From Thiobacillus sp. 63-78 (GTDB taxonomy: Bacteria > Pseudomonadota > Gammaproteobacteria > Burkholderiales > Thiobacillaceae): a DNA stretch of 64,000 bases. The first letter of the stretch is position 1. Each line of letters starts with the position of its first letter. The stretch lies in assembly GCA_001899765.1 (NCBI GenBank), contig MKWM01000038.1, positions 1 to 64,000 on the forward strand, read 5' to 3'. Below the pieces are notes generated by a model, which searched no databases, was not told where the DNA came from, and worked only from the letters and a program-made list of their open reading frames with translations. This document shows positions 13,591 to 20,952 of the stretch, piece by piece. Both the position numbers and the translations under genes were made by a program.

Positions 13591-14505
13591 ATGTCTGAAT
13601 TGAATGTAGAACAGGTTTTGTCCGATGTCGCGCGCGCGCTGGCCGAAGACGTCGGCTTCCCTCTCCCCAACCCTCTCCCGTTTGCGGGAGAGGGTGCGAG
13701 CGCTGCGCTGCGCGCGCCCGAAGCGATTAACGATCTGACCGCCCAGCTGATCCCCGCAGCGCAAACCGCCCGCGCCCGCGTCATCAGCCGCGAGCCCGCC
13801 GTGGTCGCCGGCCGGCCGTGGTTCGACGCCTGTTTCCGCGCACTCGACCCCGCCTGCATCCTCGACTGGCGGGTTGACGAGGGCGACGTCGTCGCCGCCG
13901 GCAGCGTGCTGGTAGACATCGGCGGCAATGCCCGCGCGCTACTGACCGCCGAACGCCCGGCGCTGAATTTCCTGCAGACGCTGTCGGCGGTGGCCACCGC
14001 CACCCGGCCCTACGTCGAGGCGGTGCGCGGCACCCACGCCGCCATCCTCGATACCCGCAAGACCCTGCCCGGCCTACGCATCGCCGAGAAATACGCGGTG
14101 CGGGCCGGCGGCGGACAGAACCAGCGCGTGGGTCTCTTCGACGGCATCCTGATCAAAGAAAACCACATCGCGGCGGCGGGCGGCATCGCGCAGGTGCTCG
14201 ACGCCGCGTTCCGCCTGGCGCAAGACAGGATCAGCGTGCAGATCGAGGTGGAAAACCTCGACGAGCTCGGTCAGGCCCTCGCCGCCGGCGCGCCGCTGAT
14301 CCTGCTCGACAACTTCAGCCTGGCCGACCTGCGCCACGCGGTGCAGCTCACCCACGGCCGCGCCCTGCTCGAAGCGTCCGGCAACATCACCCTGGAGACG
14401 GTGCGCGCGGTGGCCGAAACCGGGGTCGACCGCATTTCCATCGGCGGCCTCACCAAGCACATCCGTGCGGTCGACCTGTCGATGCGCATCGACGCCGATG
14501 ATTGA
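13591..14505 (+). CDS. nadC: Nicotinate-nucleotide pyrophosphorylase (carboxylating), with an in-frame repeat insertion
   Basis: This 304-residue quinolinate phosphoribosyltransferase makes nicotinate mononucleotide, CO2 and pyrophosphate from quinolinate and PRPP in de novo NAD synthesis. Typical motifs are present: LNFLQTLSAVAT, DTRKTLPGLR with the substrate-binding Arg and Lys, KENHI, and the C-terminal SIGGLTKH. Most NadC proteins read EDxGxGDLT near residue 20; here EDVG (19-22) is separated from DLT (48-50) by about 25 extra residues. The DNA of that insert is a palindromic repeat (separate entry). The frame stays open, so the enzyme may still work. No clear ribosome binding site precedes ATG 13591. 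Confidence 0.94.
   Translation: MSELNVEQVLSDVARALAEDVGFPLPNPLPFAGEGASAALRAPEAINDLTAQLIPAAQTARARVISREPAVVAGRPWFDACFRALDPACILDWRVDEGDVVAAGSVLVDIGGNARALLTAERPALNFLQTLSAVATATRPYVEAVRGTHAAILDTRKTLPGLRIAEKYAVRAGGGQNQRVGLFDGILIKENHIAAAGGIAQVLDAAFRLAQDRISVQIEVENLDELGQALAAGAPLILLDNFSLADLRHAVQLTHGRALLEASGNITLETVRAVAETGVDRISIGGLTKHIRAVDLSMRIDADD
13657..13705 (+). repeat. Palindromic repeat inserted in frame in nadC
   Basis: Arms CCCTCTCCCG (13671-13680) and CGGGAGAGGG (13685-13694) are perfect 10-bp inverted repeats around a 4-base TTTG loop, preceded by a related CCCTCTCCCC at 13659-13668. It is read as FPLPNPLPFAGEGAS in NadC residues 23-37. A near-identical element sits inside nadE at about 19845-19895 and is read in the same phase. 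Confidence 0.8.
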
Positions 14506-19129: not shown

Positions 19130-19287
19130 TTAATCGGTTTTGGCATTGCGTGTTCCCTCGCCCGCTTGCCGGGATAAGCGGCGACTTGCCCGCCTGCGGG
19201 CCTGGCCGACCGCCTGGAGGCTGCATAGAGGATGTGGGTGGAGGATAGATTGCCTGACGTCATCCAGCATCATGTCATTCGGTTTCG

Positions 19288-20952
19288 CTAAGCGAGGTCC
19301 GGTCGGTATTTCGATGTGATGGGATAGCGGCGATCTTTTCCAAAGTTGCGTGGCGTGATGCGCGGACCCGGCGGCGCCTGGCGGCGTTTGTATTCGGCAA
19401 GATCGACCAGGCGGATGACTTCGCGCACGGTGGCGGCGTCAAATCCCGCCGCGACGATGTCGCGTGCCGGCAGATCGCGCTCGACATAGGCCGCAAGAAT
19501 GGCGTCGAGCACGTCGTAGGGCGGCAGGCTGTCCTGGTCGGTCTGATCGGGACGCAGTTCGGCCGACGGCGGCCGGTCGATGATGCGCTGCGGAATGACC
19601 CGCGAGAGGCCATTGCGATAATTCGCCAGCCGGAACACCCGCGTTTTCGCCACGTCCTTCAGTACCGCGAAGCCCCCCGCCATGTCGCCGTACAAGGTGG
19701 CATAGCCGACTGCCATTTCGCTCTTGTTGCCCGTGGTCAGCACCAGCGTGCCGAACTTGTTGGACAGCGCCATCAGCAAGGTGCCGCGCGTGCGCGCCTG
19801 CAGGTTCTCTTCGGCGGTGTCGTTGATCGGCTTGGGCCTGGCGTTCGCTCCCTCTCCCGCTTGCGGGGGAGGGCTGGGGAGGGGGTTGCCGGCAAACTCC
19901 GGTGCCAACTGCCCCCGAAAGGCATCGAATACAGGCTTGATGGCGATTTCGGAATAGCGCACCCCCAGCCGCTTCACCATGTCGCGCGCATCCTCGACGC
20001 TGATGCTCGCGGTGTAATCCGACGGCATCATCACCGCGTGTACCCGGTCAGGGCCGATCGCATCCACCGCGATCGCCAGCGTCAATGCCGAATCGATGCC
20101 ACCCGACAGGCCCAGATGTACGCCCTTGAAGCCATTCTTGCCGACATAATCGCGCACGGCCAGGACCAGCGCGTCATAGACGGCGGCCTCCTCGTCGGGC
20201 AAGACCTGTTGCGGCCCGTTGCAGCCCTTGCCTTCAAGTTCGGCATAGAACAGGCCTTCCTGCCAGGCCGGATATTGCGCCGCGATCCTGCCGTCGGCAT
20301 CCAGCACGAACGACGCACCGTCGAACACCAGTTCGTCCTGTCCGCCCACCATGTTCACGTAGAGGATCGGCAGGCCCGCCTCGATCTGGCGCGCGCGCGC
20401 CACGGCAAACCGCTCGCGTTCCTTGTTGAGGTGATAGGGCGAGGCATTCGGAACCAGCAGCCATTCGGCGCCTGCTTCCATCGCACGCGTCGCCGGCCCC
20501 GGCTCCCAGATGTCGCCGCAGATATTGATCCCGAACGTCACGCCGCCGCAGGCGAACACGCAGGGCGCGTCGCCGCTGTCGAACACGCGCCGCTCGTCGA
20601 AGACGGAATGATTCGGCAGGTGATGCTTGCGATACACCGTTTCGATTGCGCCCCCGCGCAGCAGCGCCATGGCGTTGAACAAGCCGTCGTCGCTGCGCTC
20701 CGGATAGCCCACGATGAGCGCGAGTTGCGGCGGCGCATCGGCAGCCAGCTGTCGAACGGCCGCTTCGCATGCGGCCGTGAAATCGTGGCGCAGCACCAGA
20801 TCCTCGGCCGGATAGCCGCAGATCGACATTTCCGGCGTGAGCAACAGGGCCGCACCGGCGGCATGCGCGTCCCTCGCCGCGGCCAGCAGCCGCGCCGTGT
20901 TACCGGCGATGTCGCCGACCGTGAAATTGAACTGCGCAATACCAAGTTTCAT
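19288..20952 (-). CDS. nadE: Glutamine-dependent NAD+ synthetase, with an in-frame repeat insertion
   Basis: This 554-residue enzyme converts deamido-NAD to NAD. The N-terminal nitrilase-type glutaminase domain (about 1-260) has TPEMSICGYPAEDL, the Lys of YRKHHLPN, and the nucleophile Cys in FGINICGDIW. The synthetase domain has the P-loop GLSGGIDSALTLAI and the later TGNKSEMAVGYATLYGDMAGGFA. Between APEFAG and AEENLQAR, where most homologues have only a few residues, it carries about 20 extra residues (NPLPSPPPQAGEGANARPKP). These are encoded by the palindromic repeat also found in nadC. The start at 20952 is fixed by the typical MKLGIAQFNFTVGDI; a 36-residue upstream extension is rejected. 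Confidence 0.94.
   Translation of the reverse strand: MKLGIAQFNFTVGDIAGNTARLLAAARDAHAAGAALLLTPEMSICGYPAEDLVLRHDFTAACEAAVRQLAADAPPQLALIVGYPERSDDGLFNAMALLRGGAIETVYRKHHLPNHSVFDERRVFDSGDAPCVFACGGVTFGINICGDIWEPGPATRAMEAGAEWLLVPNASPYHLNKERERFAVARARQIEAGLPILYVNMVGGQDELVFDGASFVLDADGRIAAQYPAWQEGLFYAELEGKGCNGPQQVLPDEEAAVYDALVLAVRDYVGKNGFKGVHLGLSGGIDSALTLAIAVDAIGPDRVHAVMMPSDYTASISVEDARDMVKRLGVRYSEIAIKPVFDAFRGQLAPEFAGNPLPSPPPQAGEGANARPKPINDTAEENLQARTRGTLLMALSNKFGTLVLTTGNKSEMAVGYATLYGDMAGGFAVLKDVAKTRVFRLANYRNGLSRVIPQRIIDRPPSAELRPDQTDQDSLPPYDVLDAILAAYVERDLPARDIVAAGFDAATVREVIRLVDLAEYKRRQAPPGPRITPRNFGKDRRYPITSKYRPDLA
19845..19895 (-). repeat. Palindromic repeat inserted in frame in nadE
   Basis: Arms CCCTCTCCCG (19850-19859) and CGGGGGAGGG (19864-19873) pair with one mismatch around a CTTG loop, followed by a related GGGGAGGGGG. 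On the minus strand it is read as NPLPSPPPQAGEGAN in NadE, the same phase and nearly the same peptide as in nadC (13657-13705). Confidence 0.8.

Follow-up and report, generated by a model that had tools for sequence, protein, structure and literature searches.

Genomes of the genus Thiobacillus contain a small hairpin-forming repeat, either 63 or 72 bp in length, that lies in frame in nadE and nadC of the window (the whole 64,000-nucleotide stretch of DNA analysed here, with a GC content of 65%, from contig C38 of a 3.2-Mb genome), and all 18 in-gene sites surveyed across the genus are read in sense and mostly in a single frame. We consider it probable, at roughly 0.7, that this is a recurrently arriving hairpin element which is filtered by selection for a neutral, disordered and stop-free peptide. 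Such an element, which is found both inside and beside genes, would arrive at many places and most in-gene arrivals would be lost, with the survivors being those that keep the host frame, lie in a flexible loop, and read as the uncharged, proline/glycine-rich and rarely stopped PLPxPLPxAGEGAN..PKPIN instead of the arginine-rich frames.

The element and its copies in the window

The two host genes in the window are nadE (19288..20952, minus strand), which encodes a glutamine-dependent NAD+ synthetase (PDB 4f4h, E 2e-183) whose nearest relatives are Thiobacillus and Hydrogenophilales records, and nadC (13591..14505, plus strand), which encodes a quinolinate phosphoribosyltransferase (PDB 3gnn, E 8.8e-93). 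Each is a single-copy gene with one match in its own genome, so the filled copies presumably work. The nadE element (19823..19885, minus strand; model R1 E 7.1e-12, G000:C38) is 63 bp long and consists of a third block, hairpin 1 and a tail, with a core at 19850..19885 (minus strand) that has two mismatches to the core pattern and, when its blocks are compared with those of TM_ECO, resembles the type A triplex motif (TM or PIT). Comparison with empty orthologues shows that it accounts for an insert of 22 codons, NPLPSPPPQAGEGANARPKPIN, in place of three (19822..19887, minus strand), as the protein reads EFAG-NPLPSPPPQAGEGANARPKPIN-DTAEEN when filled and EFAG-RAA-DTTEEN when empty. The nadC element (13659..13730, plus strand; model R1 E 6.2e-15) is 72 bp long, with a core at 13659..13694 (plus strand) which is the counterpart of the nadE core and a second hairpin (GCGCTGCGC), and in this case 25 codons, FPLPNPLPFAGEGASAALRAPEAIN, stand where the empty alleles of the Thiobacillus genomes G068 and G069 have the two residues SG in EDVG-SG-DLTA (13657..13731, plus strand).

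An earlier sequence-only reading had noticed an in-frame element common to both genes, and this holds, with both copies read PLP(S/N)P(P/L)P-xAGEGA. It had called the palindrome near-identical in the two, which overstates the likeness of these copies of one element: a 9-nt block and several bases set them apart. The repeat is also longer than the palindrome first seen, as both copies continue beyond it to a tail ending GAT(C/T)AA, so that the extra peptide reaches ..PIN. The insert is predicted to form a disordered loop between two helices, with NadE residues 358–379 having a pLDDT below 50 between helices 339–353 and 378–400 in the predicted model; the solved NadE structure 4f4h has no such insert. 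A probable third copy, decayed and nested, was recognised by eye and was not scored by the model at 19130..19215 (minus strand), before the gene adjoining nadE, which we take from the start of its translation to be of the P-II type. The corresponding site is filled in three other loci (L223, with four tandem 63-bp copies, L277 and L290). We also note that this region looks mosaic, as NadC is 97% identical to that of G068 and NadE only 79%.

The model used to search for further copies (R1) was built from eight aligned copies from the window's own genome. The element begins with the third block (CCCTCTCCCC) and the linker AA, followed by a hairpin (CCCTCTCCCGC..GCGGGAGAGGG) and the tail CCCAAACCGATTAAY, between which the long form has a second hairpin with a variable stem. 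In the alignment of the eight copies, which are 63 or 72 bp long, the repeat end is CCCAAACCGATTAA; the tail ends GATTAAY and the consensus ends are CCCTCTCC and GATTAA. Full-length copies span 54–85 bp, and the hairpin arm, complementary arm and mirror-symmetric third block that define the G/C-rich TM/PIT were found in 139 of 145 copies, with the mirror match of the third block being 9/9 in 80 of them, 8/9 in 45 and fewer in 14; the TT linker of type A (read on the other strand) is present in 117 of these 139. Pairing in hairpin 1 is high (98.5% of the cells counted, with nine cells changed on both sides), but its conservation is not strict, as the most variable pair is paired in 81 of 115 copies and unpaired in 34, and the covariation score of 0.039 is lower than that of a control slid by −2 (0.045). 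In the 72-bp form the additional block is the second hairpin, whose stems differ between copies; of the 33 long copies scored, 29 have a stem of 4 bp or more, compared with 13% of shuffles. A third block with CCT is linked with an arm containing TCC in 20 copies, and these may be a subfamily.

Two further kinds of hairpin accompany this element. A second palindrome family in the same genome (L124, L128, L130, L133, L134 and L135) mostly has the CC linker of type B and is read LPSPASGRGAGGEG or similar within genes, in the orientation opposite to that of the first family; from their translations its hosts are presumably acnA, ileS, ygiQ and DNA methylase genes. In relatives, the nadC, nadE and glcE inserts (L331, L364 and L475) contain a further nested hairpin (around GACTAAGCCCGCAAGCGGGCAAGTCG), which also adjoins a copy in L109.

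Orientation and reading frame across the genus

The element is not a chance pattern, as R1 has 27 rows at E<0.01 in its own genome (these include the overlapping L121 and L127 and second-family members such as L124, L128 and L130; at E<=1 there are 54 rows, many of them the other strand of the palindrome), 34 of 56 genus genomes have a match at E<=1e-4, and reversed control patterns gave no matches. Regions round the genus matches yielded 253 profile hits, 154 of them full-length and 145 unique, in 134 clusters which flank similarity grouped into 66 sites; it should be noted that these regions were the top of score-sorted lists, so that well-kept copies are favoured and the counts are not of all copies. 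Flanking frames were called with a codon-usage detector, which in calibration was right in 348 and wrong in none of 352 cases, figures that are flattering because they come from the detector's own training genes. Three clusters (L243, L276 and L279) were dropped from the 34 first called in-frame because of a stop in the left flank, leaving 31, and the nadC group of four copies, whose left flank was short, was added by hand. After these corrections 18 of the 66 sites are in genes, which is few because sites are common to several species. At least 35 of the 134 clusters lie within genes, much less than a coding density of about 90% would give. A genome-wide survey had been proposed as a check, and the present one across the genus bears out a phase bias, as described below, with no excess in genes seen.

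The two NAD-biosynthesis genes are among many hosts. The same genome has in-frame copies in glcE, ubiB, rsmG, norD, hrpA (twice), ygiQ and alaS, and relatives have them in ileS, with gene names other than nadE and nadC being our reading of the translations. A link to one pathway, as raised earlier, is therefore not supported, and targeting of the NAD pathway was rejected in view of the other hosts. A helicase gene which we take to be hrpA (L119) has its two copies in two different frames, and both sites are also filled in L287.

With frames named by their peptides, antisense ones included, all 18 in-gene sites are sense; 13 clearly have the PLP 5' phase and one more is tied, and 15 have the common 3' phase (..PKPIN), with another 3' phase used in the remaining three. 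A favoured frame, which the sequence-only reading had raised as a hint, is supported, and the accompanying suggestion that chance plus the purging of stop-containing frames might suffice, with any landing frame kept otherwise, now seems to us most improbable. Stops do close some of the alternatives, as just 50% of copies are open in the sense frame PSPQPSP.. and 46% in the antisense frame beginning TAA/TGA, and the PLP frame is open in 90%. However, a null based on stops alone expects a PLP share of 0.21 (P 5e-7 with the tie and 5.3e-6 without it; 6.6e-6 for the 12 of 16 sites, including the tie, that remain without the two window sites), and against a share of one-sixth, tie included, P is 2e-8. 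The stop-only account is also too weak because two antisense frames stay unused at the 18 sites although 79% and 93% of copies are open in them. In the consensus the PLP frame has a charge of 0, two rare codons and the best codon score in both forms (although the lead is narrow in the 63-bp consensus, −0.32 vs −0.41), whereas charges of +4 to +7 and five to six rare codons are found in the sense +2 frame LSPTLSRKRER.. and in the antisense frame VNRFG..RLRERVGER. Of the 34 clusters initially called in-frame, 30 have a length divisible by three, as do 61 of the 100 others.

Orientation and frame could alternatively be set by the insertion step, with the 3' end joining a YGA-like target or a codon-initial G so that arrival itself locks the phase. 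At in-frame and other sites alike the tail is mostly followed by YG(A), the Y of YGA falls on the third codon position in 438 of 722 cases among the window genes, and the nadC, nadE and glcE fills each end at one codon boundary. Yet the glcE host does not supply the Y and the codon after the ubiB element is not that of the empty site, and 15 of 18 sites exceeds the null of 0.61 from this codon phase only weakly (P 0.037, or 0.072 when the two window sites are excluded). A YGA target motif was for these reasons rejected as the whole cause. Locking on arrival does not predict the lack of antisense sites either, and where coding lies only 5' of the element there is no orientation bias (five sense, seven antisense). 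Where coding lies only 3' of the element 17 sites are sense and none antisense (a class that contains nadC itself and may hold others in genes); these one-sided classes are approximate as they include some in-gene copies (nadC, ileS and norD). Sites between co-directional genes are sense in 14 cases and antisense in three, and five sites have no call or opposed genes. We regard this explanation as rather unlikely and infer that the choice of frame owes more to selection on the peptide than to an insertion-step rule, although the 3' phase may owe something to a junction with a G-initial codon.

Upstream of gene starts, an in-frame ATG, and perhaps also a GA-rich ribosome-binding stretch, can come from the sense strand of the element, which could explain the sense bias there. 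An ATG is often found in the tail; outside the in-frame class, 67 clusters are followed by a sense gene, and in 18 of them the element's own ATG shares the frame of that gene. In the case of truB in the window's own genome, the truB frame is closed 6 nt before the element, so that the truB start must be the ATG of the element or a later one. Related hairpins within genes of other genera, from four of five genomes, read mostly PLPxAGEG or PSPASGRG and rarely an arginine-rich frame, but in either orientation and with antisense frames used; this count is rough, as some places were counted on both strands, and we take it as a hint.

Filled and empty sites among relatives

NadC and NadE could each be scored in 50 of the 56 genus genomes. 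NadC is filled in seven (the window's own genome, G064, G072, G081, G106, G108 and G113) and has the two-residue loop in 43, and NadE is filled in three (own, G108 and G113, in which the insert is much longer and nested) and empty in 47. Among named NadE loci, 61 of 80 were readable by script, and of these 58 have the same spacing, three are four residues longer, and none has the insert. Filling of nadC is confined to one codon boundary and is scattered over the gene tree; a quick tree requires seven changes to account for the seven filled genomes, with five or more of them forced by well-supported branches, and the nadE tree needs three, all forced. We rejected a single ancestral nadC insertion followed by losses, as at least five changes are forced and a two-residue loop would have to remain after every loss. 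A G precedes CGATTAA or similar in six of the seven nadC fills, for which a tail copied from the host was considered.

Other hosts look alike. Among 30 ubiB loci read (52 genomes matched), four have the element, two a shortened remnant, one a different palindrome and 23 neither; the different one (L434, the ubiB of G061) is unrelated to the element and occupies its site, as if this were a hairpin hotspot. Among 30 glcE loci read (51 genomes matched), seven have the element (one without the 5' part and one nested), one a remnant and 22 neither. Taken with the forced changes in nadC and nadE, these would fit a homing-like behaviour, in which the hairpin element would enter the same essential genes repeatedly, each at a single codon boundary and in the protein-sparing orientation and frame, with parallel host substitutions then following beside the insert; we put this forward only tentatively.

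Repeated filling need not be repeated insertion, and it is possible, if less likely than not, that a few old insertions have spread between species by short-tract recombination. The nadE of G108 fits this, as its 45-nt left flank is 0.73 identical to that of an empty sister and its right flank 0.98, and filled alleles have common neighbours: the residue beside the insert is L in six of seven filled NadC proteins and in none of the 43 empty ones, and R and P stand beside the insert in all three filled NadE proteins, with P in none of the 47 empty ones. These common residues could reflect either imported tracts or parallel adaptation. Elements at the same site are also somewhat more alike than those at different sites (0.860 for 132 pairs vs 0.839 for 7618 pairs; Mann-Whitney P 2.8e-7, with pairs that are not independent). 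Against this, the own nadC differs by the insert from the empty alleles of G068 and G069, its two nearest, identity being 0.98–1.00 over 180 nt upstream and over the first 45 nt downstream, and keeps the V beside the insert. At one site both 63- and 72-bp forms occur, with different stems, and in one genome the ubiB site holds a different palindrome. Independent landings, as in the earlier reading, fit nadC in the window's genome; for nadE in G108 an imported tract fits as well.

A role for the element itself, with the peptide or the mRNA hairpin adopted for a function such as tuning translation of the host gene, is improbable. The second hairpin is kept though its sequence changes and placement is sense-only where coding is 3' of the element, but the same sites are empty in most relatives, the host genes are unrelated, and remnants exist. 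The recurrent arrival of a hairpin element with selection on the resulting peptide remains our preferred reading.

Relation to known palindromic repeats

The closest likeness in structure is to the triplex motif TM_ECO, earlier PIT (PMC4666352), which has the same three-block core; on the other strand, the own core is CCCTCTCCCGCTTGCGGGAGAGGGTTGGGGAGAGGG compared with CCCTCTCCCTTGAGGGAGAGGGTTAGGGTGAGGGT for TM_ECO type A. TM_ECO in E. coli MG1655 is described as always intergenic and without strand bias (Holder et al. 2015, PMC4666352), and triplex formation was shown in vitro for oligonucleotides and is not supported in vivo. Unlike TM_ECO, the Thiobacillus copies are found in frame in essential genes, are sense-biased, and have an added second hairpin and conserved tail.

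In-frame palindromes are known from Rickettsia (PMC2229807, PMC10969869 and PMC6649704), where the Rickettsia palindromic elements (RPE) also lie in conserved proteins and have a conserved peptide (PMC2229807 and PMC10969869). In-frame insertion in conserved protein genes is found at the 18 sites here, but RPE are described as 105–146 or about 150 bp long, as opposed to 63–72 bp in a window of 65% GC. Intragenic REPs (GTAG/CGTC) are similarly short palindromes in genes of many genera, and in two Xanthomonas recB genes they occupy roughly the same position (PMC3733652); unlike REPs, the element has no GTAG or CGTC tag at its consensus ends. Mobilisation by a RAYT was considered and rejected, as the two Y1_Tnp matches in the window's own genome have no copy of the element in either locus of about 3.3 kb. 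The coding MITEs (ERIC/RU-1 and the 107-bp NEMIS; PMC2229807) are small non-autonomous repeats fused in frame to genes, but unlike MITEs the element has no terminal inverted repeats, its two consensus ends being unrelated by eye. The own nadC, the single site with so close an empty sister, shows replacement of two codons and no visible target duplication.

Searches of the open-access literature gave no report of this element in Thiobacillus. In enzymes such as NadC, NadE, IleS and AlaS the element provides a set of naturally occurring peptide insertions, and the many Thiobacillus genomes, empty sister alleles and repeatedly filled codons make it testable whether the insertion step or later selection sets frame and site. 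Rickettsia provides the best-known coding palindromes, intragenic REPs are known from several other genera, and TM has been described in E. coli as intergenic and orientation-neutral; the Thiobacillus element joins a TM-like core to the in-frame, sense-biased placement in conserved genes set out above.
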